From: Lachnospiraceae bacterium
GTDB lineage: Bacteria; Bacillota; Clostridia; Lachnospirales; Lachnospiraceae
DNA length: 64,000 bases
Direction: 5' to 3'
Assembly: GCA_016286035.1 (NCBI GenBank)
Contig: JAEERY010000059.1
Coordinates: 1 to 64,000, forward strand
This document shows, in pieces, positions 22,153 through 60,641 of the stretch; within the stretch, counting starts at the first letter, position 1; each line of letters starts with the position of its first letter. Position numbers and translations under genes: made by a program. The notes beneath the pieces are model-generated. The model did no database searches. It was given only the letters and a program-made list of their open reading frames with translations, and was not told where the DNA came from.

Positions 22153-23220
22153 TTATTCGTATTCATCAGTGTTCTTCATGCGATACCAGTTACCGAACTT
22201 ATTACCGCCATGTACGTTGTTGACAGTAGGCAACTTAGCGTATTCCTGTCCCTGATGGAAATATATGTATCTATCAGTTCCGTTATAGTATATCGTTCCG
22301 CCGCTTATCATATACTCTTCGTTATCTGCAGTAATGTTCGCATCATCGCTAGCTTTCTTAAGACCCGCAACTTTGGTCGCCGCTTCCGTAATGCTGTCAT
22401 ATGTATACTCTGTACCATTCGTTGCTATAACACATTCAGAATCCCTTCCGCACAAATAACCAGAAGGATCAAAAGCATTCTCTATATGTATGTCCGCATG
22501 CCCGGTTCCGTTCTTATCTATAAGTACATAATATGCCGTAACTCCGCTGGAATTTCTCATTGCAAATTTACCAGAAGGAGCATTTAAACTAATCTTCGAA
22601 CCCGAATATCTGCCGACAGCGTCCCATCTCGGATCGTCAAGATAAGGCCAGAAAGAACTTGATATCGGCTGAGTTGTAGGTGTGGGCGTAGGTGTGGGCG
22701 TAGGTGTGGGTGTGGGTGCTACAGGCGTTGTTCCAACAGTAGGAACAAGGAATCCCGGATCAACGGTGGTATCACCAACTCCTCCCCATTCAGATACATC
22801 AGCCACAACATCTTTGGTTCCGTGCTCCGAACAAGAAGCTGTAATTATTCCGGTTGACACATTTACGGTAACCGTCATTGTGCTGCCATCTACCGGGCAT
22901 ATCCAATGTGATTTCAAAGCTTCTTCATATTCTGTAGGAATAGAATGAGTGGTAGCAGTTCCCGTAGATGTTATTTCAGCTACGCAAGCCTGAATTTCAG
23001 AAAGCGGAACCCCGCTATAAACCATCTTCTCGCAGATATTAACAACCGCATCTCTGTTCTCAACGCAAGCCGTTTCTTTTTTGGTTGTTACATACTTCAT
23101 AAACTGTGGAACAATCAGTCCAACCAATGTTGTCATGATAGCAATAACCACAATCAATTCTACGAAAGTTACTCCGCTGTTATCTTTCTTATTATAAGAA
23201 GAATGATCAAAATGTCTCAT
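22153..23220 (-). CDS. modular prepilin with Thr-Pro linker
   Basis: 355 residues, first gene of the pilus series. Residues 16-17 form the cleavage site (NSG|VTFVEL, Glu5 at residue 21) and residues 17-40 the assembly helix. The proximal head contains CPVDGSTMTVTVN..ASCSEHG, a Cys-Cys-His arrangement common in Firmicutes pseudopilins of the ComGC type. A Thr-Pro repeat at about 171-188 then joins a distal domain (about 190-355) with no family I recognise. This resembles a pilin carrying an extra displayed domain on a stiff stalk. The ribosome binding site AAAGGAT precedes the ATG. Confidence 0.82.
   Translation of the reverse strand: MRHFDHSSYNKKDNSGVTFVELIVVIAIMTTLVGLIVPQFMKYVTTKKETACVENRDAVVNICEKMVYSGVPLSEIQACVAEITSTGTATTHSIPTEYEEALKSHWICPVDGSTMTVTVNVSTGIITASCSEHGTKDVVADVSEWGGVGDTTVDPGFLVPTVGTTPVAPTPTPTPTPTPTPTTQPISSSFWPYLDDPRWDAVGRYSGSKISLNAPSGKFAMRNSSGVTAYYVLIDKNGTGHADIHIENAFDPSGYLCGRDSECVIATNGTEYTYDSITEAATKVAGLKKASDDANITADNEEYMISGGTIYYNGTDRYIYFHQGQEYAKLPTVNNVHGGNKFGNWYRMKNTDEYE
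22677..22715. repeat. 12-bp tandem repeat encoding the Thr-Pro linker
   Basis: About three copies of gtaggtgtgggc (with minor drift at the end) lie in frame inside the prepilin gene and encode alternating Pro-Thr. Because the unit is a multiple of three, slippage would lengthen or shorten the linker without a frameshift. Confidence 0.85.
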
Positions 23221-23341
23221 AACATATCCTTTCAGACATACTTTAGCCCATTTAGTATCTTTATGTTAACACATCATTATTTATAATACAATACATTTTG
23301 TTAAAAAACTTAAATTTTTTATAAGATTTCTATCCTTTTTC

Positions 23342-28529: not shown

Positions 28530-29928
28530 CTAAACTATTCTCTTTATCCTGTTCTTTATTTAGCAAAAAGCCAATAAACATAAACAAGTATGCTACAGTA
28601 TGAAACTTCCTCACGCCGAAAAAAGCACTTATCTGATATCCGATCACACTGCATGCAAAAACCAATGTTATGAACGGTAATTCTTTAAGTTTTCTTACAC
28701 GATTCACAAACAAATAGATTAGTCCGCCAAGGTACATAACCAATCCAGGAATTCCCATAAACAGGGCGCATTCCAGAAACTCATTATGGGGTGTCATGGA
28801 CACAACCGGTTGCCCCCATCTATCATACATCATATCCGGACCATATCCAAGAATCGGCCTATTCGATATTGCCTCTATCGCCTGTTTCCACAAAAGAATT
28901 CTGTTAGAGCCTGCCTTTTCATACCCAACTTTTCTTCCCGCCACATTAAAGATATCCTGAAGTAAAACAGCTAAGCTAGTGCCCGTTGTAGTCCCCAATA
29001 AAGACTTGATCACTCCAATATAACTCAAATATACAAAGATAATCAGGATAATCATCGGAAGGAAATGATAGAATCCAAGTTTCCTTCTTCTTATCTTCCA
29101 AAATATAAGCATGAAAACAAGGGCAAAGAATACCCCCAAAAAGCCACCCATGCAATCATTGATCACCATAGCCCACATATTAATGGCAAATGATAGTATG
29201 TATATAATACTCCATATTCCTTTCTTTGAATCTTGAGTCTCTTCAATATTCACATAAAACATACCAGCCATCAAAGGAAGGGACATTGCCAAATAATATC
29301 CATAATGGTTCGAATTAGTAAACACCGAGCAGCCACAATATCCAGTAAAGTTATAGAAGAAAGGAATATTATATTCCAAAGACAGCATTACCATAGCAAG
29401 AAAATCCGCAACTATAACATGCACCTTTACGATCCTCATTCTGCCTTCACAGTTTACAAGATACGCACATCCCATAAGACAGATCATAAAAACATGTGAT
29501 ACATATCCCGAAGAGAGTTCTGTAACACCTACAAACGCTCCACGAATATCTACTGCGGATACACTGGTTATTATTCCCCACAGCAACAAACATAGCCAGA
29601 ACAGAAGCCACGGTTCTCTTTGTTTTATTCTATTTATAACTTCAACTATATTCCCTCTATTGTATAATGTTTTTCCCACAACATATATCATAAAAACTGA
29701 AAGCATCAACACAAATCCAATCTCGGAAATCAGCAAGCAGGCATCATTATACAAGTACGGATCATAGGATGGTACATCCAACAGCATAACATAATTTACA
29801 AACCCAGATAAAACAGGTGTAATACAAAGAAGAATAATTAAACCTTCTGCATATTCTTGAAACTTCTCTTCTCCTATTTTTTCATATATGTATGCTAATG
29901 CACTGACCTCTTTTAATTTATTCAGCAT
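28522..29928 (-). CDS. O-antigen ligase/Wzy-like membrane protein
   Basis: 468 residues with about ten to twelve hydrophobic helices. The large loop contains NSNHYGYYLAMSLPL and, near residue 345, SNRILLWKQAIEAISNRPILGYGPD followed by TPHNEFLECALFMGIPG; the R-x-x-x-W, GYGPD and H-N-E-F elements are the signature of the Wzy_C (O-antigen ligase/polymerase) family. The ATG at 29928 has GAGG 6 bases upstream and overlaps the preceding YfhO gene by 11 bases. It probably polymerises or attaches the surface glycan made by this cluster. A broken paralogue of its N-terminal third lies at 57735-58324. Confidence 0.88.
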   Translation of the reverse strand: MLNKLKEVSALAYIYEKIGEEKFQEYAEGLIILLCITPVLSGFVNYVMLLDVPSYDPYLYNDACLLISEIGFVLMLSVFMIYVVGKTLYNRGNIVEVINRIKQREPWLLFWLCLLLWGIITSVSAVDIRGAFVGVTELSSGYVSHVFMICLMGCAYLVNCEGRMRIVKVHVIVADFLAMVMLSLEYNIPFFYNFTGYCGCSVFTNSNHYGYYLAMSLPLMAGMFYVNIEETQDSKKGIWSIIYILSFAINMWAMVINDCMGGFLGVFFALVFMLIFWKIRRRKLGFYHFLPMIILIIFVYLSYIGVIKSLLGTTTGTSLAVLLQDIFNVAGRKVGYEKAGSNRILLWKQAIEAISNRPILGYGPDMMYDRWGQPVVSMTPHNEFLECALFMGIPGLVMYLGGLIYLFVNRVRKLKELPFITLVFACSVIGYQISAFFGVRKFHTVAYLFMFIGFLLNKEQDKENSLDE

Positions 29929-32359
29929 ATTTTTCCTCTCTTTTCAAATTGCCCTCTTTATCACCTAGATGTATCCCATCGCTCAAGTACTTTATCCTTA
30001 CTATATATGACACAGCCATCAAAAGTACAGCTGATATAGCAATAGCTACTCCAGTATAAACCCCAGGTGATGTATAACCAATTCTAACTGTATGCTTGCC
30101 CTCCGGCATCGGTACTATAAGCATAACGCCTCTATAATCACTGAACCTTACTTCTTTATCATCCACCTTTATATGCCATCCATCCATGTACGGAAGCGAA
30201 AGTAGCATATTCCCTCCCCTTCCTGCATCAATGACACCAGTAAAAGTGCCGTTTTTATGCTCAATTAACCGTAACTGCCTTTTATTCAGACAGTCTATGA
30301 TATCAGAGTATACTCTCTTATCCATATATGCAATATTAACGTCTTCAAAGTATACTGTGCTGCCTACCTCGATATCAATACAATCACCTTTACTATGATC
30401 TCCCAGAAACACCAAATGAAAAGAATTATCACTTCTAAATCCCCCATATGGCTCTCCATTAACAAGAAGATCTGTATTCTCACGTGTATCTTTCAGACTT
30501 TTTTCTTTTTCTACATCTCTATCAGTCTCAGTAACATACAGCCACACCGGTGCATCCGTCGGTATCTCAACCGTTAACTTTACAGCTTTTGCATAATCAT
30601 CTAACTCAATTTCTTCATATACTTCAGGCATTATTTTCTTGAAAACATCCTCATCCAAACCAGTTAGTTCTTCTGCCAATTTGTTCTGATTATCAAAAGC
30701 ATTTTTACTTATCGCAGATGAACTTATATCAGAATCTAAATATGTCATATATCCTAAAGACAGTGCATCCCGATTTTTAGAAACCGCATATAAACCTCTT
30801 CGATATATTTCATCCTCCTGATCTCTCGTGTCCCCGAAAGTAAACCTGTATTTGGCACCAAGTAAACTCTCTTCCAATGGCGTTCTGTCCCCATCCTTTA
30901 GCACATGATATGACTGACATTCCCCCAAGTCTCCAAGATAATTCATGACCTTAAGGTTATAACATGACGAGAAATATCCCAGGCCGTTATATCCAAGCCA
31001 AGCACCATCATTATATGTATACGGACACTTGTCCGAAATACGATAGAAATCCTCATCATTAATAAATCCCAACAGTTCTTTCTTTGTCTGCAACTCACGA
31101 ATATATTCTTCTCTCGGATTGTAATGTAATTCAACCATCAATCCCGCTATAAGTATTGAACTGTTCAAAAACAATTCCACCATAACAAAACAAACAGCAA
31201 TGCTACTTATAACTTTTGAAGCATTGTATTTCTTCAAAAGTTCCAGCAAATCATTTATTCCCTTATACGCTATGATGAGCAACAGGCAACTGAAAGCATA
31301 TGAATATCTGACCTCAAAACATGTTGTTTCTCTGAATCCATGCATTATCCTGTCAAGAGGAATAAATATCATCGAAAAAAGATAAAAAGCAATCACTTCG
31401 GCATATAATATCTTTATGAAAGTTCTAGCTTTATTATTCTTCAAGAAAAATATAATAACCAATAACAAAGTTCCTGTTCCACAGAATATGAGCGGTAAAC
31501 CATCATCATAAACCGTATCATATCGTCCTGAAAACAGCTGCTTCAAAACATCAATAAAACTGTAGCGAAAAAACGCATCAAGAGGATAAGACTCTTCATC
31601 CATTTTTCCATTTTTCAAAGCCAAGATTCCAGGCAATACCACCGGCATTGAAAGCATAATAGATATCGCTGTATTATAGAATATATAAAGCGCTCTTTTA
31701 AAACTCCATTTATTCAATTCAAAGAGTCTTACAAATATATAGAATGCCACAAAAATCAACGACATAAACGTCAAATAATAGTTGCAGATCATTGATGCGA
31801 ATATCGAGATAATATAGATAACAGGCCTTCTCCCTTTCAATATCCGTTCTGCTCCTGTCAGTATCCAAGGAAGTAACAGCACAGCATCAAGCCAAATAAG
31901 GTTTATCGAATACCCAATATTGTATGACATAAGAGCATAACAGCAAGAAAGCAACAAGGCTCCAAGATAATGCTTTTCTTCATACGAATCCAATAAATAG
32001 TAGCAAAATCCTAAACCGCACAATCCGATGCGCAATATGGTGATCACATAAATGGCATCAGGAAGATATTCTAGCGGCAAAAAAGCAGTCACCCAAATCA
32101 TTGGCGAAAACAGATTATAATATACGGATCCGAGATAATTATTTCCCAAAGCCCCAGATAAGTTCAAAAAAATCGAATTATCCGATCTGCCAATATATCT
32201 AAGTACTGCAAAAAATGGCATATACTGTGCCTGCATATCCATTGCAAGAATTGTATTTGGGCCACCAAGATATATTCCCTTAATCGCATAAGCAACGAAA
32301 GCTATCAGCATAGGAATTATCATTGATAGTATTATAATGAATATCTTTTTTATTCTCAT
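29918..32359 (-). CDS. YfhO-family membrane protein (copy 3)
   Basis: 813 residues. First loop GGPNTILAMDMQAQYMPFF, then many membrane helices, the GFRETTCFEVRYSYAF loop, and a soluble domain ending LPYMDGWHIKVDDKEV with YRGVMLIVPMPEGKHTV, then a terminal helix. It differs more from copies 1 and 2 than they do from each other. It is the closest relative of the C-terminal relic at 59389-60192, which shares LSLGYMT, GGNMLLxLPYMDGW and the final helix. It is translationally coupled to the ligase-like gene. Confidence 0.88.
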   Translation of the reverse strand: MRIKKIFIIILSMIIPMLIAFVAYAIKGIYLGGPNTILAMDMQAQYMPFFAVLRYIGRSDNSIFLNLSGALGNNYLGSVYYNLFSPMIWVTAFLPLEYLPDAIYVITILRIGLCGLGFCYYLLDSYEEKHYLGALLLSCCYALMSYNIGYSINLIWLDAVLLLPWILTGAERILKGRRPVIYIISIFASMICNYYLTFMSLIFVAFYIFVRLFELNKWSFKRALYIFYNTAISIMLSMPVVLPGILALKNGKMDEESYPLDAFFRYSFIDVLKQLFSGRYDTVYDDGLPLIFCGTGTLLLVIIFFLKNNKARTFIKILYAEVIAFYLFSMIFIPLDRIMHGFRETTCFEVRYSYAFSCLLLIIAYKGINDLLELLKKYNASKVISSIAVCFVMVELFLNSSILIAGLMVELHYNPREEYIRELQTKKELLGFINDEDFYRISDKCPYTYNDGAWLGYNGLGYFSSCYNLKVMNYLGDLGECQSYHVLKDGDRTPLEESLLGAKYRFTFGDTRDQEDEIYRRGLYAVSKNRDALSLGYMTYLDSDISSSAISKNAFDNQNKLAEELTGLDEDVFKKIMPEVYEEIELDDYAKAVKLTVEIPTDAPVWLYVTETDRDVEKEKSLKDTRENTDLLVNGEPYGGFRSDNSFHLVFLGDHSKGDCIDIEVGSTVYFEDVNIAYMDKRVYSDIIDCLNKRQLRLIEHKNGTFTGVIDAGRGGNMLLSLPYMDGWHIKVDDKEVRFSDYRGVMLIVPMPEGKHTVRIGYTSPGVYTGVAIAISAVLLMAVSYIVRIKYLSDGIHLGDKEGNLKREEKYAE

Positions 32360-32446
32360 TTATAATATATTCCTTAAATATTGGAGTATGTTATAGGTCT
32401 GTTAATATTATTGAGAATTCACTGCATCGCCTTATCTTCTAATAAC

Positions 32447-33682
32447 CTAACAAGCATCTGGTGTATTATCAGTAATAGTATTATCCTCTTCTTTCCTTTT
32501 AACCCTTACTATCAACACAATGAAGATTATGTTCAAAATAAGAGTACATACTATCGCCAAATAACGCATAAAATACAGCTTATATAACATGCTATATGTC
32601 ATCTCAACTGATTTGTTTATTAATTCCAATCCATATGCATTTACAATAATCCGATTGTAAAGAAGCATTCCCACTTGGGATACAGTGGTAGATATTGTAA
32701 TAACCAGGTATGCTTTTTTATATTCCACCTCATCATATATATATAATGCTACAAACACTATAAACATTGAATAAATCGTATATCTTCCGTGCTGAGAAAC
32801 AGTAAGCATAAAAACAGAAATCATATATACTAAAGACGCATATAAATAATCATTTGTTTTCTTATATACGTATATCCCAATTAACATACAACCAAACAAA
32901 AGGAGCGTTGATAAGTGCTCTATTATTGGTGGTAGAGGCCAATACTCAAAAATCCCCCAAAGGTTCCCGGCCACAGAGCCAAAAACTTTATGAATGCTGA
33001 ATTCATACATATATAGTTTAATCGCTATCAGATAATCTCCTGATGTGATGGCAAATGGTAAAAAAACTAAATATCCCAATCCTAAACTCGAAAAAGCCGC
33101 AATTACCAATCGCTTTGCCTGTATTCTTACCGCATAGTAATATAAAAGAAGAATGAATATAAAGTATATTCCCTGTGGTTTCAGCAAACAAAATACAGTA
33201 ACAACAATAGCTGGTTCAAACCATTTTTCTTTTTTCATATAATAGAACAACAGAACGATAAGAAATCCAATCATACCATCGCGCTGCCCGTATATAACAA
33301 TATTTACCAGTAACGCTGCATTAACAGACCATTTCCATGCCGCTTCAGGTGATATCTTTTTGTATATGAATATCTGGGCTAGAAACTCAACAGCTAAAGG
33401 TAAAGTTTTCATCACCAACTGAGTGTAATTCGACAATACCTCTCCAATCATGTTTCTTATCATATACAACCAAACAAGATAAAGTGGCGGATAATCCACA
33501 GGCATCTCTATATCCCAGGAATCATAAATATGTAAAAGGCCATATTGCTTCATCCACTGAATCCATTTATAATCAGTTGTTAATATATCCAAATAATTCA
33601 CAAGATAGTATGCCGCAATAACCGAGATCACGTCTAATATTATTATCTTTTTCCATATGGATAATTTGATTTCTTCTTTCAT
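32447..33682 (-). CDS. polytopic glycosyltransferase (GT-C, GT39/GT87-like)
   Basis: About 411 residues with roughly ten membrane helices. The first extracytoplasmic loop carries DSWDIEMPVDYPPLYLVWLY; acidic residues followed by a YPP motif in loop 1 are usual in polyprenyl-phosphate-sugar-dependent mannosyl- and glucosyltransferases. VFCLLKPQG near the middle is also common in this class. The ATG at 33682 is chosen over 33718: GGAG lies 6 bases before it. The enzyme probably adds a sugar from a lipid-phosphate donor outside the membrane. Donor and acceptor are unknown. Confidence 0.8.
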   Translation of the reverse strand: MKEEIKLSIWKKIIILDVISVIAAYYLVNYLDILTTDYKWIQWMKQYGLLHIYDSWDIEMPVDYPPLYLVWLYMIRNMIGEVLSNYTQLVMKTLPLAVEFLAQIFIYKKISPEAAWKWSVNAALLVNIVIYGQRDGMIGFLIVLLFYYMKKEKWFEPAIVVTVFCLLKPQGIYFIFILLLYYYAVRIQAKRLVIAAFSSLGLGYLVFLPFAITSGDYLIAIKLYMYEFSIHKVFGSVAGNLWGIFEYWPLPPIIEHLSTLLLFGCMLIGIYVYKKTNDYLYASLVYMISVFMLTVSQHGRYTIYSMFIVFVALYIYDEVEYKKAYLVITISTTVSQVGMLLYNRIIVNAYGLELINKSVEMTYSMLYKLYFMRYLAIVCTLILNIIFIVLIVRVKRKEEDNTITDNTPDAC

Positions 33683-33787
33683 ATCGTTCTCCGAATCACT
33701 CAATTTTATTCTCTTCATTTGTGATCATATAGGATTATCGAAATATATTTTTGTCTTATACTGTATATGCACCAACATATCTAATAA

Positions 33788-36463
33788 TCAACGCATACTA
33801 ACCAACCTGTTTATCACTCCCACTATAAGTGGGATAACATACATTAAAACAATTATTGAATAACACAGCAACAAAAACATATAATATAGGATTTTTCCTG
33901 CCCATACTTCTCTCTTCTCCGTTTGCTTATGTGCAAGTATTTCATATAGTACTACTATCATCACCGCCAACACAGAAAGAAGTACGCCCCAATTCAAGCA
34001 AGGAATTTTATATCTTATATCAACCGTAACATCGCCTTTTTTTACCGGGATCAACAAGAACGCATCTTTTATGGCCGCAAAATACTCAGTCCCAGCATCA
34101 TTTACCCTTATATCCCATCCTATGTTATATCCTATCGGTAGCAAAAGATTTCCATCTTCATTAATTCTGCCGGTGATTTTTAATCCTTTCTTATCAAACT
34201 TGACATCCAATGCTTGTTTATTGTCCAGTTTTTCATACTCATTTTCCAGCAATTGCATATCCAGGCCACCTATCTTAAGATCGTTTTTCCACCCTTCCAA
34301 TCCTTTTCCATAAGTATCCTGAACATGTATAACAATGTGTACATCCTCATCGTTATACGAACCGCATTCTATTAATCCATTTCTGAAAAAAGCCGGATAC
34401 GTGTTATTATCCTTATGCATCAAAAAAGGCAACGATTTATTTACAGAATTTATCTCGAAAGAATATGTGTATTCACCTGTTAAGGAATATAGATATATGG
34501 TTTTTTTACCTTCTACAGGTATTATTATTTGTACTTCTCCTTCAATGTTTTCAGAGTCTTCAACAATAATCTTTTCGATGTCATATTCCTCGATCAACAG
34601 CTGCTCATTCCCGGTTATTTCAGAAAATAGTCTATTCTGATTATCAAATACATCTTCTGAAAACTCCTGTGTCAGAAATGACTCAGTTACTATCCCAAAC
34701 GGTAAAGAATATTTATAATTATAATAATCCGTAACTTCACCGGATTTGTAAAAAGAGTATAACTGATCATTAGGAGTTTCCGAAGTTATCAGTTTCTTAA
34801 TGCCCATGAGATTGTCTGTAAAGATCGTTCCGCCATTATCCACAAACCTCGTATAATTATACGAATAACCCAGTTGTTCCATAGCTCTTCGTATGTTAGG
34901 ATTGGTTCCCCATGTCCAGTTTTCAACTGCCGGAATACGGGTAATGAGTGGCCAGTTAGTGATCAATGACGAATCTTCATTCTTATACCTGATCGTCAGA
35001 TCAGCCTCTTCACCATTCTCATTTCCAACAGTCACGGCATTTTTTAAGAGATCCATATTGCACTCAACAGAACTGTACTCCGGAGCCACAAAGCCATAAG
35101 AACCCAACAAAGATTGTGACACGATAATTATTGCCAAAACACTTATAGCGATTTTAAGATTTTTTGAATAACACGCCAATGCTACGATAACAACAGAAAA
35201 AAGAATTATCAGCCAATAACTGTTATAAGCATCACTGTCCAAAGTAGCAAACGTCAAAAAGCCCTCTGTGAAAGCATGTAGCACCGCAATAAAAAGAGGC
35301 AGTATAACTATGGCTGCATATCCTGCTATTCTTCTGTAAACAGATAAATCCTGCCAAAGGCACCATCTTTTTGAACTAAAAAATTCTATAGATAGACATA
35401 TCGCTTCAAACGAAAGCATATAGCCAAACCGCATCGGAAAACTTACATATCCACCGGGATGCCATAGAATATTGATACCCTCAACAAATATAGGTAGCAA
35501 TAACATGACCAGTATAATGAGATGCCTGCTAAAAGCTTTTAATTCCTTTCGTTCAAGAAGAATAATACTCCCAATAGCAAGTACTCCCTCAGATCCATAC
35601 AGCATAAACAACTTCTGCTCAGGATTCGTACATACCGAGGATACCAAAGTACTAAAATATCCACCTGATGTAGTAGCTATACTTGCCCTGCCTGATCCCA
35701 TTAATTGTATGACCATCGGTAACCACGCCCATGCAGAAAGCAATAACGCCAGTATAGTAGCAATAGCCAGTCTGGACACTATATGTGTCTTATCTTCTTT
35801 CTGCTTGTATCTGATATCCAGAAATGCCTTAATGATCAGATAAACACATATCATATACATTAACTGAATATTGGTAACAAATCCCAGTATCATCAGTGAT
35901 ACGTAATATCTGATCCTGTCTTTTTCTATCAGATAATCCAGAGACAAGATAATCAAAGGAAAGATCATAACAATATCAAGAAATGTAATGAAGCAGTAAT
36001 ATTGTAAGACAAATCCACAGGTAGCATAAGAAAGAGCTCCTATCAAATTCCCAAATATTGGAATACTACTATATTTCTTCGAAATATAAAATGACATAAA
36101 AAAAGATGATAATGCCATCTTAATTATGAGGAAGACAGACATGAATTCAACTATGTGATCACGCTTTATAAATAAAAAAAGAAGATTGATAGGATTTAAC
36201 ACATAACTTCCCACTCTATCGGTCATTGATCCTCCCATACCGGAGTACCAATCCCAAAGGAGTGCTTTCTTTCCATGCAAAACATCCCAAGTATGATAAT
36301 AAGAAGGAATAACAGATTGACTCATATCCCAATAGGATACACTTTTTATTCCAAACGGATATATCCCTTTAAATGCATATATAATGAGCATAACCACTGT
36401 AACGGTAAAGACACTGCATATTCCGCATACTACTAATCTTCTGTTTTGATTCTCCAAATGCAT
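33788..36463 (-). CDS. YfhO-family membrane protein (copy 4)
   Basis: About 891 residues with many hydrophobic helices, YfhO loops (YWDMSQSVIPSYYHTWDVL; FGNLIGALSYATCGFVLQYY) and an extracytoplasmic C-terminal domain with YNIGWDIRVNDAG and a last helix. It is the most divergent of the four. I choose the ATG at 36463 because AAGGTGG sits 5 bases upstream; the earlier TTG/ATG (36502, 36499) abut a rubrerythrin hairpin and lack a ribosome binding site. It is first of the membrane-transferase run 36463-23342. Confidence 0.85.
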   Translation of the reverse strand: MHLENQNRRLVVCGICSVFTVTVVMLIIYAFKGIYPFGIKSVSYWDMSQSVIPSYYHTWDVLHGKKALLWDWYSGMGGSMTDRVGSYVLNPINLLFLFIKRDHIVEFMSVFLIIKMALSSFFMSFYISKKYSSIPIFGNLIGALSYATCGFVLQYYCFITFLDIVMIFPLIILSLDYLIEKDRIRYYVSLMILGFVTNIQLMYMICVYLIIKAFLDIRYKQKEDKTHIVSRLAIATILALLLSAWAWLPMVIQLMGSGRASIATTSGGYFSTLVSSVCTNPEQKLFMLYGSEGVLAIGSIILLERKELKAFSRHLIILVMLLLPIFVEGINILWHPGGYVSFPMRFGYMLSFEAICLSIEFFSSKRWCLWQDLSVYRRIAGYAAIVILPLFIAVLHAFTEGFLTFATLDSDAYNSYWLIILFSVVIVALACYSKNLKIAISVLAIIIVSQSLLGSYGFVAPEYSSVECNMDLLKNAVTVGNENGEEADLTIRYKNEDSSLITNWPLITRIPAVENWTWGTNPNIRRAMEQLGYSYNYTRFVDNGGTIFTDNLMGIKKLITSETPNDQLYSFYKSGEVTDYYNYKYSLPFGIVTESFLTQEFSEDVFDNQNRLFSEITGNEQLLIEEYDIEKIIVEDSENIEGEVQIIIPVEGKKTIYLYSLTGEYTYSFEINSVNKSLPFLMHKDNNTYPAFFRNGLIECGSYNDEDVHIVIHVQDTYGKGLEGWKNDLKIGGLDMQLLENEYEKLDNKQALDVKFDKKGLKITGRINEDGNLLLPIGYNIGWDIRVNDAGTEYFAAIKDAFLLIPVKKGDVTVDIRYKIPCLNWGVLLSVLAVMIVVLYEILAHKQTEKREVWAGKILYYMFLLLCYSIIVLMYVIPLIVGVINRLVSMR

Positions 36464-36504
36464 AGAAACCACCTTGATCATCTTCATATATTTATTCATC
36501 AATT

Positions 36505-36528: not shown

Positions 36529-37092
36529 TTAATAATTCTCGGCTTTCAACTGGAAATAATCTCTAGGATGATTGCAAACGGGGCACACTTCTGGGGCTTC
36601 CTTGCCAATCACAATATGTCCGCAATTACTGCATTGCCATATGCAATCACCATCGCGCGAAAATACAATCTTATCCTCAATGTTCTTAAGTAACTTTCTG
36701 TATCTCTCCTCATGCTCTTTCTCAATAGCAGCTACACCTTCAAATAGTTCGGCAATTTCCTCAAACCCTTCTTCTCTGGCAGTCTTAGCAAATGAAGGAT
36801 ACATCTCATTCCATTCGTATGACTCACCCTCAGCCGCTTCCTTAAGATTATCTATAGTACTTCCAATACCCATCAGAATCTTATACCATATCTCAGCATG
36901 CTCTTTTTCATTTGCTGCAGTTTCAGCGAATATATTAGATATCTGAACATATCCTTCCTTTTTTGCCTTTGAAGCAAAAAAAGTATACTTGTTACGAGCC
37001 TGTGATTCCCCAGCAAACGCTTCTTGCAAGTTCTTCTCTGTTTGTGTTCCCTTAAGTTCTTCTGATCTACATCTCCATTTGTTTTCTGACAT
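36529..37092 (-). CDS. rbr: rubrerythrin
   Basis: 187 residues: a four-helix diiron domain with [22 protein letters not shown] and [12 protein letters not shown] ligand segments, then a rubredoxin-like Fe(Cys)4 domain ([17 protein letters not shown]). It reduces hydrogen peroxide in the cytosol of anaerobes. The ATG at 37092 has GGAGGG 6 bases upstream; the longer frame to 37143 lacks a signal. It interrupts the glycan cluster and has its own hairpin at 36505-36526, so it is likely an unrelated passenger, though it lies on the same strand. Confidence 0.95.
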
Positions 37093-37146
37093 ATCCAATC
37101 CCTCCATATGTTTCTTTAGACAAATACCAATTATAATAGACAAGTA

Positions 37147-48756: not shown

Positions 48757-51522
48757 CTAAACGTTTAGCTTTATTGAGCTTCCGCCGCTCTTGTTCTTTG
48801 TTACAACGATCTGCTTGTCTATGCGCTCCTTAAGATCACCCACATGGGATATTATACCGACAAGCCTGTTTCCTTGCGTAAGACTTGCAAGTGCTTTATA
48901 TGCCTGATCGAGAGCCTCCGGATCCAGGGAACCGAAGCCCTCATCCACAAACATCGTATCTATCTGTATGCCTCCGGCAAGAGACTGGATCTCATCAGAA
49001 AGCCCCAATGCAAGAGAAAGGGATGCCATGAACGATTCTCCACCCGAAAGAGTCTTAACACTCCTTTGCGTTCCATTATAATGATCTATTACTCCAAGAT
49101 CGAGTCCGCTCTGACTCCTTGCATTTGCAGCCTCTTTTAAGCGTACCAGCTCGTACTGCCCCGCAGACATTGTCATAAGGCGAAGGTTTGCCCTGTTTAT
49201 TATGCGGTCAAAATAGGTCATCTGTATATAAGTTTCAAGCATGACCTTATCCTTGCCGTTCAATCTTCCGCCGGCTGTATCTGCAAGGGATTTCATCCAC
49301 TGCAGCTTCTTTTCGATCTGCGCGGTCTTTGAAGCTTTTTTAGCTATGTTATCTCTTATAGATTCATTTGTCTCTATTCTTGAAGCTACTGTTTTGCCTC
49401 TGTCTATGCATTCTTTCTGATCTTTGTTCAGGCTTTCCTGCTTTTGTAACTCACCTTCAAGATCTATGGCCTTACTCTCTTTTATAGTCTTTTCCTGACT
49501 CTCTATGGCTGCTCTTAACTGAAGGATCTCTTCTTTTTTATCCTTGAAGGCTTTGTCTTTGTCTTCAAAATTCTTTTGAAGTTTTTCTGCCTGCTCTTCA
49601 AGACTTTGTATATGTTTTAAAGCCTCATTTTTGTCTTCAAACGCCAGACCCTTTTTAAGAGTATTAAGATTCTTTTCTTTCTCGCTTATCAGAGATGTCT
49701 TTGCAGCTGTTTCTTCTTTAAGTTTTTCTATATCCTTTGTTGTTTTTGATATCTCTTCTTCAAAAGAAGGTATCGTCTTTTCAAGGAAGGCTTTTCTTTC
49801 ATTGTTCTTTTTAGCTTCCTTAATCTTATCTTCAGTCTCTCTCTTTCTTGTCTCGCAGTCTTTTATTGCTTTATCAAGGTTTTCTTTGATCTTATCGATA
49901 TCATCTGTCCCAAGAAGTTTTTTTGAATCCTTTTTTATTAGATCCTCTTTTGTCTCATATGCCTTTAAAAGTGCCTTTGCATCCGACAGAGAATTCTCCA
50001 TATCCTTTCTTGCCTTGTCTGCTTTCTTTTTGGCATCATCAAGTTCCTTTTGTGATGGCACCTTATCGGAAAGCTGTGCAGGATCAGGATGAGAGGTCGA
50101 TCCGCATACGGGACATTTTTCACCTGCCTTAAGATCTTTAGCCAGAATGCCTGCCTGGGCATTTCTGAAATCCCTGTCCATTAACTCATACAGATCATTT
50201 AACTTCTTGTATTCTTCATCCTTCTTTGAGTATTGCTCCTGAGCCTCTTCAAGTGATTCCTTTTCCTTTTTATGCTCATCAAGCGCATCTGAAAGTTCGT
50301 TTAAGGCCTCCTCTTCAGACTCCGTCTTTTCAAAGATAGCAGACAGCTTTGCAGTCTCTTCCCCGGAATCCTTTATAAGGCTCTGCTCATCTTTCATATC
50401 CTTAAGTTCATCTTCTTTTTTCTTAAGGCTCTTCGTAAGATCGTTAAGCTTATCTGTATTTGACTCGTTTTCCTCTTTTTCTTTTGCTATCTCTGAAGAT
50501 AGTTTTTCCAAGGCATCATAATCAGGAAGACTTGCTTCTGTCTTTGCAGCTTCCTTTTTAAGTGCCTCCTTATCCTTTAAAGCTTCTTTTGCCTTTTTTA
50601 ATTCATCTTCAAGTATGGGAAGCTTAGGCTCTTCTTCGTTTAGTTTACTCTTTGCTTCTTCGAGAGCTTTCTTTGCATTGATCAGGGCATTTGCGGCACC
50701 TAGCGAAGTATTTACCTGTTCAAGGTTTAAATTTATGTCAACCAATTCTTTGTCAAGTTCATCCTTGATTGCCAGATCTTTATCCGTAAGCCTGTCAAGA
50801 AGCTCAAGCACATCATCGGTAGTCATCTTTCCGTCTTTTGCTTTTTCTACTTCCAACGATAAGACATCATCCTTATCGACCTGAATGCCTGCTATAAACT
50901 GCGTAATGCTCTTTATGCCGTCAGATACCTGTTCATAGACAGCTCTCTGTTTTTCATCGAGCATCTTTTGAAGGGTCATGTAGTTTTTTGTCTTAAACAG
51001 CTCCCTGAATATCTCTATCCTGCTCGTAGTCCCGGCCAAAAGTAGTTTTAGGAATTCACCCTGTGAGAGCATGGCTATCTGAGTAAACTGATCCTTGTTT
51101 ACTCCCAGTATCTCTTCTATAGCTGCGGTCACACCTGAGACCTTTGTTATAACCTTGCCGTCAGGCATGTTTAGCTGTGCATCGGGAAGCTGTTTTGTGA
51201 GCTTATCCCCATGCTTGGACAGACGCATATATTCAGGATTTCTCTTTACCGTATAGGTCTTGTTCGCGTGAGTAAATACAAGTTCTACTTCTGTAGGCAC
51301 ATCATCAGGAGCATACTTTGACCTGAGCATATTTGGATCCCTGTTTGATCCGCTGGCCTCCCCGAAGAGAGCAAAGCAGATGGCATCAAAGATCGTTGTC
51401 TTTCCCGCACCGGTATCTCCCGTTATAAGATAGAGCCCGCTTTCTCCAAGCTCATCCATGGGTATCGTTGTGCTTCCGGCATAAGGACCGAAAGCGGACA
51501 TTTTAAGTGTTACCGGTCTCAT
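48757..51522 (-). CDS. sbcC: SbcC exonuclease subunit
   Basis: 921 residues, SMC-like ATPase partner of SbcD (Mre11-Rad50 type), processing hairpins and blocked DNA ends. Walker A GDTGAGKT is at 35-42. Two very long coiled coils flank a zinc hook CPVCGS near residue 470. The ABC signature TLSGGESFMASLSLALG and Walker B MFVDEGFGSLD are in the last 110 residues. It starts 3 bases after the SbcD stop, GAGGTGTAGGAT serving as ribosome binding site. Confidence 0.96.
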   Translation of the reverse strand: MRPVTLKMSAFGPYAGSTTIPMDELGESGLYLITGDTGAGKTTIFDAICFALFGEASGSNRDPNMLRSKYAPDDVPTEVELVFTHANKTYTVKRNPEYMRLSKHGDKLTKQLPDAQLNMPDGKVITKVSGVTAAIEEILGVNKDQFTQIAMLSQGEFLKLLLAGTTSRIEIFRELFKTKNYMTLQKMLDEKQRAVYEQVSDGIKSITQFIAGIQVDKDDVLSLEVEKAKDGKMTTDDVLELLDRLTDKDLAIKDELDKELVDINLNLEQVNTSLGAANALINAKKALEEAKSKLNEEEPKLPILEDELKKAKEALKDKEALKKEAAKTEASLPDYDALEKLSSEIAKEKEENESNTDKLNDLTKSLKKKEDELKDMKDEQSLIKDSGEETAKLSAIFEKTESEEEALNELSDALDEHKKEKESLEEAQEQYSKKDEEYKKLNDLYELMDRDFRNAQAGILAKDLKAGEKCPVCGSTSHPDPAQLSDKVPSQKELDDAKKKADKARKDMENSLSDAKALLKAYETKEDLIKKDSKKLLGTDDIDKIKENLDKAIKDCETRKRETEDKIKEAKKNNERKAFLEKTIPSFEEEISKTTKDIEKLKEETAAKTSLISEKEKNLNTLKKGLAFEDKNEALKHIQSLEEQAEKLQKNFEDKDKAFKDKKEEILQLRAAIESQEKTIKESKAIDLEGELQKQESLNKDQKECIDRGKTVASRIETNESIRDNIAKKASKTAQIEKKLQWMKSLADTAGGRLNGKDKVMLETYIQMTYFDRIINRANLRLMTMSAGQYELVRLKEAANARSQSGLDLGVIDHYNGTQRSVKTLSGGESFMASLSLALGLSDEIQSLAGGIQIDTMFVDEGFGSLDPEALDQAYKALASLTQGNRLVGIISHVGDLKERIDKQIVVTKNKSGGSSIKLNV

Positions 51523-56300: not shown

Positions 56301-56350
56301 TATTTGCCCTGACTTTTTGTGCTATAATGAACTAAACAAGGAGGATGTTT

Positions 56351-56848
56351 ATGAAAAGATCGCTTATGATATTTTTTCTTTTGCTCACTCTGGGACTTTT
56401 TGCTTCATGCGGAAAGACTGAGGAAACAGAGGATACGCCAGAAGAGACTGTCGCACTCTCCGATCAGGTCTATTTAAATATAAAAAAGGACCTGTCAGCA
56501 CAGGCCGGTGAGATAATAGATGCCTCGCAGAGAGCCGTCTATTCTTCATATGAAGAGGTATATAATGATTATTCGGGAATGCTTTCCGAACTTTACAAGG
56601 CTCAGGCTTCTGATCTTAAAAAAGAGATAGAAGAAGGTGCCGATAATAACGCACTTTCAAAAAGTGTAGCCGACAAGACAGCAAAGCTTAGAGATATAGC
56701 GGCGGACGGTGTGAGCATGATGTCCAAGATGGCCTCCATAAATCCCGTTGATAACGGAGATTACAGTGACTGGAGCAACAAGTTAAACACTATATGCACC
56801 GCATATGAGAACAAGCTGACAGAAACATTTACCGATTCGGCAAAATAA
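56351..56848 (+). CDS. small lipoprotein
   Basis: 165 residues. The N-terminus MKRSLMIFFLLLTLGLFASC is a lipoprotein signal peptide with lipobox L-F-A-S-C at about 16-20. The mature part begins with a Glu/Thr-rich linker (about 22-37) and is then largely helical, with D/E/K-rich segments. AAGGAGG lies 6 bases before the ATG at 56351, ruling out the overlapping ATG at 56345. The function is unknown; no enzymatic motif is seen. It ends at a perfect hairpin that is repeated at 60234-60264. Confidence 0.8.
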   Translation: MKRSLMIFFLLLTLGLFASCGKTEETEDTPEETVALSDQVYLNIKKDLSAQAGEIIDASQRAVYSSYEEVYNDYSGMLSELYKAQASDLKKEIEEGADNNALSKSVADKTAKLRDIAADGVSMMSKMASINPVDNGDYSDWSNKLNTICTAYENKLTETFTDSAK

Positions 56849-56876
56849 TAAAACAATGATATGATAAACAGGCAGT

Positions 56877-56908
56877 TTAAAAGGGATATCCGTTTTGGAT
56901 ATCCCTTT
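56877..56908. terminator. repeated terminator hairpin, left copy
   Basis: Perfect 12-base stem (56880-56891 with 56897-56908, aaagggatatcc and its complement) with loop gtttt, followed by TTAACTG. It ends the lipoprotein gene. A 31-base stretch (56877-56907) is identical, in the same orientation, to 60234-60264. Confidence 0.85.
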
Positions 56909-57041
56909 AACTGTAAACAAAGCGGTTTTGAGAAAACACAATTCTCAAGATCATTTTTTTATAAAAATACTCATCCTGCCATGTGAATTCTTATCGGCAA
57001 AAAATACGGATGATGCTACAAAACAGTTATCCCCGGATAGC

Positions 57042-57389
57042 TTATCCTTCAAGGATATTCAACTCATCCTCTATCGCTCTGGATACAAACTGGTTTATGG
57101 TAATTCCCTCATTGGCTGCGTACAAAGCTATTTTTTTATGTTGTTCAGGTTTAATACGCACATTAAAAGAGCCTTTAAATTCACGCTCAGGGTCTTTACC
57201 GATTTTTTTACAATGATCAAGGTAATTATCTATGCAGTCACGCATGGACTGTGATAGTTCTTTTACAGATTCTCCGTGAAAATTTAAAGAGTCATTGATA
57301 CCGAGAACATGTCCAATAAAGATCTGATCATCCTGATCAAATTCAACCTTTGCATGATATCCATTATATTCCATCAGCGAACTCATCAT
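57042..57389 (-). CDS. hicB: HicB antitoxin
   Basis: 115 residues. The N-terminal partial RNase-H-like fold (YNGYHAKVEFDQDDQIFIGHVLGI, then the HGESVKELSQSMRDCIDNYLDHC helix) is the HicB fold, and the C-terminal 45 residues (FNVRIKPEQHKKIALYA..ITINQFVSRAIED) are a ribbon-helix-helix DNA-binding domain. It neutralises HicA and represses the operon. It begins one base from the end of hicA, so the two are coupled. Confidence 0.92.
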   Translation of the reverse strand: MMSSLMEYNGYHAKVEFDQDDQIFIGHVLGINDSLNFHGESVKELSQSMRDCIDNYLDHCKKIGKDPEREFKGSFNVRIKPEQHKKIALYAANEGITINQFVSRAIEDELNILEG

Positions 57390-57646
57390 TATATTTCACC
57401 CACTTCCTTTAGAAATCCTATTACCATTTTTATCTGATACCTGTATAATTCATTTCCCGGATGCCGTCCGTCAAATTGAATGATACGTTTTGTTTCAATA
57501 TGATAATAACCTATTCCGGATCCTCTCCCGCCTTCAAATCTCTCACATCCGCACTGCTTCATAAGTAAGTCAGGTTCTCTCGTTGTAAAGTTTGTGGGAG
57601 CCGGTTTAGACAATAGTTTTTCTAATAATTCTGATCTCTTAGGCAC
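57389..57646 (-). CDS. hicA: HicA toxin
   Basis: About 85 residues, an mRNA interferase with a dsRNA-binding-like fold. The catalytic His lies in GSGIGYYHIETKRIIQFDGRHPGNE. The promoter at 57678-57706 would start transcription near 57671, which excludes the frame's first GTG at 57679. The two remaining starts are ATG at 57652 (signal 1 base away) and GTG at 57646 with AGAGG 7 bases upstream; I prefer GTG, giving MPKRSELLEKL, a common HicA opening. Confidence 0.9.
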   Translation of the reverse strand: MPKRSELLEKLLSKPAPTNFTTREPDLLMKQCGCERFEGGRGSGIGYYHIETKRIIQFDGRHPGNELYRYQIKMVIGFLKEVGEI

Positions 57647-57658
57647 TGCCATACCTCT

Positions 57659-57706
57659 GCAACTAATTTCTAGTTGCACTATATCATTTTATTTTATTCT
57701 CGTCAA
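57659..57706 (-). promoter_or_regulatory. hicAB promoter and probable HicB operator
   Basis: On the minus strand TTGACG (57706-57701), 17 bases and TATAGT (57683-57678) form a near-consensus promoter. The inverted repeat gcaacta-5-tagttgc (57659-57677) begins right after the -10 and covers the expected transcription start, a suitable site for autoregulation by the ribbon-helix-helix HicB. Confidence 0.8.
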
Positions 57707-57734
57707 TCGGAAATGCACTTCAGGTTTTTTCGTC

Positions 57735-58324
57735 ATTTTATAATTAAACGAAATCATTATGATCGCTAATATGTCTGATACTACAACATATGTATTAATA
57801 ACCCTTCTTCGTCCATCTTCATTCAAAAGATATGCACATATCATCACGCATATCATATATATATGGGTTATATAGCCCGACTAAAGGATCGTTCCACCAA
57901 ATAAAGCTGATTTAGGATAAGCTGAAGCAACAACCGTAATAATCCCCCAGACCAATAGAGCTATCCACCAGAGTAACCATGGTTCCCTGCATTTAACCTT
58001 TCCCAATATGCCCTTTATCCCAAGATGTTCTTGCACTATCTTTCCTCTCACAAAGAACACAGCAAAAACTGTCATGAGGATAAACCCAATGCTTGAAACA
58101 ATTATACACCTGTAATTATATAAATAAGGATCATACGAAGGTATGTCCAACAGCATAATATAATTAATAATACCTATGATCAAAGGCGTCACGCAAAGCA
58201 AACGCAAAAGCCACTCAGCAATCTCTGCAAACCCTTCTTTCCCGATTCTGTCGTAAATACTTATTAATGATCCTCTTTTTCCCTTTTCTTCCATAACAGT
58301 TTTGTCCTTCACTTCACTATTCAT
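57735..58324 (-). pseudogene. broken O-antigen-ligase-like gene (N-terminal third)
   Basis: The reading frame matches the intact ligase-like protein at 28522-29928: shared IMLLDIPSYDPYLYN, REPWLLWW, LLVWGIIT. An in-frame TAG at 57881-57883 then interrupts it, but the same frame continues with homology: SGYITHIYMICVMICAYLLN followed by a segment ending VVVSDILAIIMISFNYK, matching the intact SGYVSHVFMICLMGCAYLVN and VIVADFLAMVMLSLEYN. Homology stops near 57735, just before the hicAB promoter. The start is uncertain (ATG at 58324 or 58294, neither with a clear ribosome binding site). This is a relic with a nonsense mutation and a 3' truncation. Confidence 0.88.
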
Positions 58325-58355
58325 ATTTGTGTTATAATAATCAGGAGGCTCAAAC

Positions 58356-59414
58356 ATGAACAATACTTCCAATCATTACATACAACTAGATTTTATAAAA
58401 GTCATGGCAACAATCATGATCATATTCCACCACTATCAACAGATTTTCGGTGTTTACTTTTATAATCATGTGAATTATTATTTTGGTCTGTTTGATTTTG
58501 GCATATTGGTAGAATTATTCTTTCTTATTTCAGGTATAGTTATTTCTAAACATGAGCAAAGTATACAGAACTCTGATCATACTTTTAAAAAATTCTTCAT
58601 CAATCGGTATCTGCGCCTCATTCTCCCGATAATGGGCTCTGTAATCGCCTATGAAACAATCAGTTACTACGCCGGAATTATGAACGTTGAAAACTGGCTG
58701 TTTGAAACCGGAATAAACCCCCTCGGGGCTGTTGTTGCCTCGCTTGGTATTTCAGCATGGGGAATTCTTGATAATCCAATGATCAATAATCCCATATGGT
58801 ATGTTTCTGTTTTATTTTTATGCTACCTAATATTCTATCTGATTCTAAAAGCATCTAGAAAGCTCAATTGTTCTGCTATATATTTTTACATTCTTATAAT
58901 AGTATTAGGCATATCCACTCAATTGTTAAGCATTAATATTCCTTTACTTAATTATTCAACCTCACGTGGATATATCGCATTCTTCTTTGGTGTTATTCTA
59001 TCTCATAGAATAAACAAGACCAGCACCCCATCGCTTCCAGAAGTAATAACATGCATCATACTAATCATGTTGTTTATTCACTCATATATACATTACTACA
59101 ATTATATAAAACCGATAATATTGTATCTGCTTGTTTTTATACTCTATCCATCACTCATTCGCATTATCATGGCTACTGATTTCACACTTATCAAACATAG
59201 TATCTGGACCAAACTAAACCGGTATGCATATTATGTATTTGTTATGCATCTTCCCACATTGTTTGCGCTATTCGTTGGAATAAACCTAAATATCATTCAT
59301 TATGATATTACATTAAGATCTAATATGTTTTTATTTGCTCTAATATCATATATCATTGGCATAATATACTACTATATTATTTACTTAATCACGCCAAAAC
59401 ATGATTTGTCTTAA
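58356..59414 (+). CDS. membrane acyltransferase, family 3
   Basis: 352 residues with about ten hydrophobic helices. YIQLDFIKVMATIMIIFHHYQQ near the N-terminus carries the conserved acyltransferase-3 His in the first helix, and NPIWYVSVLFLCYLIFYLI the second conserved region. Such enzymes O-acetylate surface polysaccharides. AGGAGG sits 7 bases before the ATG, a strong signal. It is the only large plus-strand gene among minus-strand relics and overlaps the 3' end of the YfhO relic by 26 bases, so it was probably inserted between the relics' two halves. Confidence 0.88.
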   Translation: MNNTSNHYIQLDFIKVMATIMIIFHHYQQIFGVYFYNHVNYYFGLFDFGILVELFFLISGIVISKHEQSIQNSDHTFKKFFINRYLRLILPIMGSVIAYETISYYAGIMNVENWLFETGINPLGAVVASLGISAWGILDNPMINNPIWYVSVLFLCYLIFYLILKASRKLNCSAIYFYILIIVLGISTQLLSINIPLLNYSTSRGYIAFFFGVILSHRINKTSTPSLPEVITCIILIMLFIHSYIHYYNYIKPIILYLLVFILYPSLIRIIMATDFTLIKHSIWTKLNRYAYYVFVMHLPTLFALFVGINLNIIHYDITLRSNMFLFALISYIIGIIYYYIIYLITPKHDLS

Positions 59415-60192
59415 AGTTATCCTTGTTATCAGTCAAATGCTTATTATTTAGAAGTATGATCATAATCCATAGACAAGCAGAAATGAGCATACTTATCAAT
59501 CCAGCTATTAACCCAGGCGGAAAGAAAGCAATTTCAACGTTATGTTGCCCTCCAGATAACGGAACGATTATCATGGTATCTCTGTAATCACAATATTCAA
59601 CCCGATGTCCATCAACCTTAACCTTCCATCCATCCATATATGGTAAGGTAAGCAACATATTCCCACCTTCACCGGCATCTATAGTACCTTCAAAACGTAC
59701 TTTAGAATGCTCTGTTATATTAAGTTGATTCTTTGACAAAGAATTCAAGATATTATGATATGCTTCCTCATTAAAAGAAAAGACATGCATGATACCATAG
59801 TATTTTTCACTTAAGACTTCAATATTAAGTTTTTCTCCCGATACGTGTTCACCCAAAAACACCATATAAGCCGATTCATTATGAGGATCTATGAATTCAC
59901 CAACGCTTTCACCATTTAAAAACAATTTATTATCAGCTTTGAGTGCTTTTTGTTCTTTTGACAATTGTCTGCTATTATCAATCTCGAAATAAGCCCAAAT
60001 ATTTTGATTTTCAAACGCATTTCCACTTAATACTCTACGTGCATCCCCTTCCTTAAGTCTTGTCATATATCCCAGTGACAGTGCATCATCATCTTCATAT
60101 AGCGAATAAAGCCCCTCAGAAGCAATCAATCTGCCATATATAGGCTTATCAACATACAGCAATTTATACTTTAAGATAGGAGGGTATACCAA
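59389..60192 (-). pseudogene. YfhO gene relic, C-terminal third only
   Basis: 267 codons equivalent to the end of the intact YfhO copy at 29918-32359: ALSLGYMTRLKEGD, FENQNIWAYFE, the GEGGNMLLTLPYMDGWKVKV strand, MIIVPLSGGQHNVEI and the last helix. All membrane helices of the N-terminal two thirds are missing, the frame opens with TTG and has no ribosome binding site, and homology begins abruptly near 60180. Without the transmembrane part it cannot work as a YfhO protein. With the ligase relic at 57735 it preserves the YfhO-then-ligase gene order. Confidence 0.85.
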
Positions 60193-60196
60193 AAAT

Positions 60197-60230
60197 AAAC
60201 AAAGCCAGGATGAGATCCCTGACTTTGTTT
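60197..60230 (-). terminator. second hairpin in tandem terminator
   Basis: aaacaaagccagg (60197-60209) pairs with cctgactttgttt (60218-60230), one G-U mismatch. On the minus strand it is followed by ATTTTTGG. Together with the repeated hairpin next to it, it gives the DUF1508 gene a double terminator. Confidence 0.65.
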
Positions 60231-60233
60231 AGA

Positions 60234-60264
60234 TTAAAAGGGATATCCGTTTTGGATATCCCTT
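60234..60264. terminator. repeated terminator hairpin, right copy
   Basis: The same aagggatatcc-gtttt-ggatatccctt hairpin as at 56877-56908, identical over 31 bases in the same orientation. On the minus strand it runs into TTTTAATCT and lies just past the stop of the DUF1508 gene, which it terminates. Confidence 0.85.
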
Positions 60265-60272
60265 CAACTTAC

Positions 60273-60641
60273 TTATTTCTCTGTTATCTTGCCGTCCTTT
60301 GCGTTCTTCTGGACTGAAGCAACACCCTTTAGGCAGCTGTCTAACTTTGAGTAGCCCTCTCCTGTTGCTATTATCTGTCCGTTCTTTGCTTTAAGACGGA
60401 AGCGGAACTCGCCCTTCTTATCCTTGTAAACCTCAAACTTGGGATTTGTAACAGCCTTGAATCCTTTTTCTGTCTGGTCCTCAACCTTTGCGATCTGCGA
60501 ATTTGTCATAACAGATGCGATGCCCTTTTTAGCTGAAGCAGCGCTCTTGTAAACCTGGCTTGATGCTATGATCTCGCCATTACCTGCAACAAGATTGAAT
60601 TTGTAACCGTTCTTTGCTTCTGATAATACGAATTTGCCCAT
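60273..60641 (-). CDS. DUF1508 (YegP-like) tandem-repeat protein
   Basis: 122 residues made of two copies of the about 55-residue YegP/DUF1508 fold: FVLSEAKNGYKFNLVAGNGEII..SKASAKKGIASV-type in the first, FEVYKDKKGEFRFRLKAKNG and KLDSCLKGVASVQKNA in the second. The protein is small, cytosolic and basic; family function is not firmly known. GGAGGG lies just before the ATG. It is monocistronic, with tandem terminators. Confidence 0.92.
   Translation of the reverse strand: MGKFVLSEAKNGYKFNLVAGNGEIIASSQVYKSAASAKKGIASVMTNSQIAKVEDQTEKGFKAVTNPKFEVYKDKKGEFRFRLKAKNGQIIATGEGYSKLDSCLKGVASVQKNAKDGKITEK

Follow-up and report, generated by a model that had tools for sequence, protein, structure and literature searches.

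What lies between two conserved genes of a Lachnospiraceae bacterium, and is it a discrete element? The question is raised by a 64,000-nucleotide stretch of this genome (contig JAEERY010000059.1 of assembly GCA_016286035.1, hereafter the window), in which 3.3 kb of accessory DNA separate a plus-strand lipoprotein-like gene from a minus-strand DUF1508 gene and are bracketed by two copies of a 31-base hairpin. A preliminary description of the locus had proposed that this block entered at a terminator shared by the two genes and duplicated it. On balance, after alignment with G012, a congener (sister species) of the source genome, we consider it probable that the interval is instead a variable accessory site between conserved genes and not a discrete element delimited by hairpins; it has the look of a common kind of variable locus, not of a novel mobile element.

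Same flanks and different content in a sister species

The interval is framed by the following features:

56345-56848, plus strand: lipoprotein-like gene, left flank (open reading frame [ORF] without a Pfam hit; G012 ortholog at the same place)
56877-56907, no strand assigned: left hairpin copy (repeat comparison and fold; 29 of 29 core bases the same in G012)
56924-56952, plus strand: second terminator-like hairpin after the lipoprotein-like gene (terminator scan and fold; G012 homology continues to 56962)
60196-60231, minus strand: terminator-like hairpin beyond the right hairpin, in DUF1508 sense (scan, fold and repeat comparison)
60234-60264, no strand assigned: right hairpin copy (repeat comparison and fold)
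60273-60641, minus strand: DUF1508 gene, right flank (PF07411, E 1.3e-39; G012 ortholog at 98% amino acid identity)

In G012, contig C67 is colinear with 47.7-56.96 kb of the window and contig C8 with 60.27-82 kb, so that the lipoprotein and DUF1508 genes, which agree with the preliminary description, border the same variable junction there, split over two contigs that break at this point. The order in G012 is the lipoprotein gene, one hairpin (29/29 core bases, loop included) and 55 bp containing the second terminator, of which 46/55 bases are identical between the two species (hand count on the alignment). After 56962 the contents diverge, with PemK/MazF and MazE in G012 versus HicB and a HicA-like protein in the source genome. 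The same left flank is therefore followed by mazEF (plus insertion sequence [IS]-like ends) in one species and by hicBA and a gene cluster fragment in the other. Read most simply, this alignment makes the hairpin and the second terminator the 3' end of the lipoprotein gene itself, with accessory DNA starting after them. Since G012 homology runs 55 bp past the left hairpin, the block probably does not begin there, and the earlier claim that the hairpins delimit an insert was not supported. Alternatively, an insertion would have predated the species split, with the 55-base stretch as its left end.

At the junction, the G012 contig ends (end of C67, start of C8) are IS-like ends, GGGGCTGTCGC..., of which two types occur at 12 places in that genome (≤2 mismatches), mostly near contig ends. 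As the C8 end differs in its inner sequence from the other copies of that end type, and as no target duplication was seen between the two G012 flanks, the two ends may not derive from one insertion. Related IS-like ends were also seen in source genome contigs C1 and C67. At the DUF1508 gene of G012, where an IS-like end and the contig break lie, no hairpin was seen in the available bases; G012 may have lost a second copy there or may never have had one. An empty site with a single hairpin, which the preliminary description had suggested seeking in relatives, was not found: G012 has one hairpin, then other content and then an assembly gap, with no bare single-hairpin site.

The block is a mosaic including a piece of a surface-polysaccharide-type gene cluster

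The content of the block in the source genome is as follows:

57042-57389, minus strand: HicB-family antitoxin (PF05534, E 4.5e-20)
57389-57679, minus strand: HicA-like toxin (PF07927, E 2.7e-5, 24.6 bits, below the curated cutoff of 27)
57740-58414, minus strand: wzy (O-antigen ligase family) 5' fragment and upstream region (84.8% nucleotide identity to G012:C42, L070 11346-12026)
58356-59414, plus strand: acyltransferase (Acyl_transf_3; PF01757, E 8.9e-21, full domain, residues 10-339 of 352)
59365-60171, minus strand: yfhO 3' fragment (PF09586, E 2.4e-27; 78-80% nucleotide identity to G012:C42, L070 10406-11351)

HicB, the HicA-like protein, the acyltransferase and two gene remnants had all been recognized before, and the absence of an integrase or transposase was confirmed, no recombinase or transposase domain being found in a Pfam scan of the five block ORFs. 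The two remnants did not prove to be separate, however. The wzy fragment is truncated and has one internal stop, and the yfhO fragment is missing its beginning and, relative to G012, 135 internal bases; their matches are contiguous in G012:C42, overlapping by 6 bases. The "two relics" are hence best described, from this alignment, as one 2.4-kb stretch made of a truncated wzy, an intact acyltransferase antisense to both neighbors and a truncated yfhO. Between yfhO and wzy, G012 carries a decayed stub of the acyltransferase N terminus, MNNTTSNNHYGQLD... (L070 ~11350-11410). Given the stub at the same place, the common ancestor probably had the acyltransferase and G012 later lost it by deletion. 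Decay is thus complementary, with the acyltransferase whole and its neighbors broken here, and the reverse in G012.

In G012, this stretch lies within the cluster corresponding to 22-36 kb of the window, between orthologs of window genes 36529-37143 and 22153-23220. The counterpart in the source genome is:

22153-36502, minus strand: present yfhO/wzy cluster (four YfhO proteins and one Wzy_C among those scanned)

The relics were rejected as copies of this cluster, as wzy is 47-49% and yfhO 34-40% identical in amino acids to the window genes; to G012 the values are 85% and 62-72%, respectively. Since the G012 stretch lies inside the corresponding cluster, the core of the block appears to be a piece of a different allele of that cluster, either left behind or imported, and lies ~21 kb from the present one. 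Base composition agrees with this origin in that the G+C content of the block parts (0.32-0.37; 0.32-0.36 for the wzy/yfhO fragment) resembles that of the cluster (0.357) and not that of the flanks (0.41 and 0.42).

The cluster itself diverges strongly from its G012 counterpart despite conserved borders. Amino acid identity is ~35-55% for the cluster genes that match and 65-98% for the bordering genes; window genes 32447-33718 and 33788-36502 found no match in the G012 cluster at 1e-8, and beyond 37143 the G012 stretch compared is not colinear with the window. This pattern suggests allele replacement at 22153-36502, a process that O-antigen and capsule-type clusters undergo. The likeness to such replacement lies in divergent genes inside conserved neighbors and in a leftover allele piece; unlike in those clusters, the leftover here is ~21 kb away. 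A 23-bp overlapping direct repeat with a 12-base period (22676-22710) was also noted within gene 22153-23220.

A promoter-like site was seen at 57706-57678, by the HicA-like gene. HicB relatives occur in 3/19 other genomes of the genus (two at 52-56% and one, weak, at 31% amino acid identity) and none was found in G012, while the acyltransferase gave a single weak match (27% amino acid identity over part of its length) among the same 19. With the block as a DNA query, 14/250 genomes of the family matched, including the source genome, and the best matches were to hicBA (66-71%); with only two candidates per genome scored (2 of 48 in the source genome), the search says little about absence. The earlier view of the block as an insert stands insofar as the same flanks enclose a variable junction in G012, but the block is a mosaic and not a unit.

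A hairpin found so far in two species only

The two hairpins are identical at 31/31 bases in direct orientation, as had been reported, and constitute the longest exact direct repeat of the window; the only other exact direct repeat of at least 20 bases is the 23-bp one at 22676/22688. In register, the repeat extends to 39 nt with 37/39 identical (56874-56912 versus 60231-60269), and no match turned up at ≤3 mismatches in 100 dinucleotide-shuffled versions of the window. A strong hairpin fold is predicted for left and right copies alike, the palindrome being made of two copies of the self-complementary GGATATCC plus a spacer. At ≤2 mismatches, the 20 genomes of the genus contain two copies in the source genome (a draft of 3,024,764 bases in 95 contigs), one in G012 and none in the remaining 18. 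No third copy was found in the source genome at this threshold, and the hairpin is absent from the other 396 genomes of a 397-genome family sample (≤1 mismatch). The pattern GGATATCC-N5-GGATATCC matches 23/184 loci examined, every one from the source genome or G012; looser spacing (2-12) adds one unrelated site, in G014. Among viral contigs, neither the exact hairpin nor a relative of the lipoprotein was found. These copy numbers led us to reject a common terminator, the presence of which genome-wide would, by the preliminary description, have refuted its own proposal, and likewise a REP-like dispersed palindrome, for which many intergenic copies are expected. To date, this 3' element is known from these two species only.

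Whether it is "the terminator" of its genes, as had been assumed, is uncertain, because the stem is followed by only TTT or TTTT and, strong as it is, the hairpin is not listed among the terminator-like sites of the sequence scan. In gene sense, a second terminator-like hairpin comes after each copy (56924-56952 and 60196-60231), so that each is backed by a stronger terminator. The locus resembles a bidirectional intrinsic terminator between convergent genes in having a symmetric hairpin with A and T tracts, usable on either strand, and differs from it in that there are two copies, with another terminator-like hairpin after each. Matches of 21-22 bases to the 60196-60231 terminator in G006 and G008 were taken as chance, as they look coding-like by eye. 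The terminator after DUF1508 in G007 and G009 bears a weak resemblance to the shared hairpin, with shuffles reaching the score in 16/2000 and 46/2000 cases; this likeness could mean that the DUF1508 copy is the older of the two.

Distribution of the flanking genes

The "lipoprotein" label of 56345-56848 is a reading of the N terminus by eye. Its G012 ortholog is 88% identical in amino acids across the last 121 residues; the G012 frame is interrupted near an A run (three stops in the match; L019 ~1815-1960), possibly by a frameshift or a sequencing error. The gene was found in 9/61 genomes (source genome counted; two of the nine weak) and the DUF1508 gene in 5/20 genomes of the genus (source genome counted). 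G007, G009 and G014 carry both flank genes on separate contigs, and the stretches compared from these three genomes gave only two other matches to the window, weak ones at 28-33% amino acid identity, both in G014. Among the 80 DUF1508 loci listed (named records), a syntenic run is common to the G012 locus only, five others have one further gene in common with the window, and none has the hairpin. Judging from these comparisons, no outgroup among the genomes and loci tells which hairpin came first. The window also contains an SbcC-like ATPase gene (48757-51522; Pfam AAA_23, SbcC_Walker_B). SbcCD acts on palindromes, but its presence here is probably a coincidence.

Origin of the block and of the second hairpin

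We infer that the interval would be maintained by ordinary recombination, with exchange at the conserved flanks bringing in DNA from relatives. Illegitimate joins and deletions would have truncated wzy and yfhO. The hicBA pair is joined to the 2.4-kb wzy/acyltransferase/yfhO piece, and the second hairpin, at DUF1508, would stem either from duplication on the splitting of a shared site or from copying or conversion. Hotspots without mobile elements have been described and explained by exchange at core flanks (PMC5635113). The present locus is alike in its variable content between two conserved genes with no integrase seen, and unlike in that only two states are known. Several observations weigh against a variable accessory site. 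The locus is common to one relative only (G012 C67 and C8), so that "variable" is based on two states, the assembly having a gap in one; the hairpins are flush with the flank genes, direct and 37/39 identical, as the splitting of one shared terminator would give; and neither a donor junction nor an empty site nor a recombination tract was observed in the genomes compared.

Two explanations deal with how the second hairpin arose, and either may hold alongside the variable site. One holds that both genes already had the hairpin before the block entered between them, through terminator copying, template switching or conversion; we regard this as a serious possibility, if one that we would hesitate to adopt. 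Consistent with it, the hairpin core is 29/29 identical between species versus 46/55 for the next 55 bp, so that sequence identity does not by itself point to recent copying, the hairpin and a second terminator are present at each gene, and the left flank is conserved in G012. The trailing bases are also alike in gene sense (TAAACAAAG), which together with the palindromic stem accounts for an inverted 42-nt match at 81%. This likeness was picked after the fact, though, and G012 has TAGACAAAG; the trailer score was reached by window 25-mers in 179/20000 draws and by shuffles in 74/20000, a modest significance. Furthermore, the loop agrees in direct alignment only, and the G012 DUF1508 gene shows no hairpin, with the caveat of the IS-like end that lies there. 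The other explanation, in which one hairpin served both convergent genes and was duplicated by DNA entering there (circle crossover or a long target duplication), we think rather unlikely. It accounts well for a direct repeat with matching loop flush with both genes, for spacings (8 bp to the DUF1508 stop codon, 28 bp to the lipoprotein stop) that would suit a compact convergent pair, and for the single copy in G012 with no third copy in the source genome. It is at odds with the second terminator that each gene has of its own and with contents apparently of separate origins, the cluster fragment versus hicBA, which was not found in G012. Moreover, as G012 keeps the 55 bp and second terminator past the left hairpin, the insertion would have to predate the species split, this stretch being part of the insert. 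Between splitting and copying we make no firm choice.

We consider it very unlikely that the block represents a small element whose inverted ends, TAAACAAAG...CTTTGTTTA, lie just inside the hairpins and which produced a target duplication of 36-39 bp. A 9-bp inverted match does lie just inside both hairpins, but it is all that was found of the terminal inverted repeats and transposase of a transposon, the left end belongs to the flank that is conserved in G012 with different cargo, and no other copy of the right end was seen in the source genome (10/10 candidates scored); the left-end search was weaker (2 of 48 candidates scored). Integrase-att islands and REP-type palindromes are similar in having a repeat at both ends or a palindromic intergenic unit, respectively, and dissimilar in that no integrase or recombinase was found inside the block and that the two copies are not dispersed. 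A tandem duplication ending at the hairpin, followed by deletion, was rejected, as it leaves the G012-like flank after the left copy unexplained. We give hardly any credence to a misjoin at the 31-bp repeat, even though the assembly is a draft of 95 contigs: on either side of the junction G012 is colinear with the window, the cluster fragment is in keeping with the same genus in its gene content and G+C, and the final k-mer of an assembly is usually longer than 31 bp.

With a variable accessory site as the preferred explanation, what appeared to be a tidy repeat-bracketed island falls apart into unrelated pieces once a single close relative is aligned. One of these pieces is an orphaned part of an allele of surface-polysaccharide type, the counterpart of which survives in the sister species. 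It is also conceivable, if quite improbable, that the palindrome seeds recombination or is bound by a protein, so that accessory DNA can be swapped there with no recombinase encoded by the element itself and each flanking gene is left with a copy. Proof that the hairpin seeds exchange would be relevant to the turnover of hotspots that lack mobile elements.

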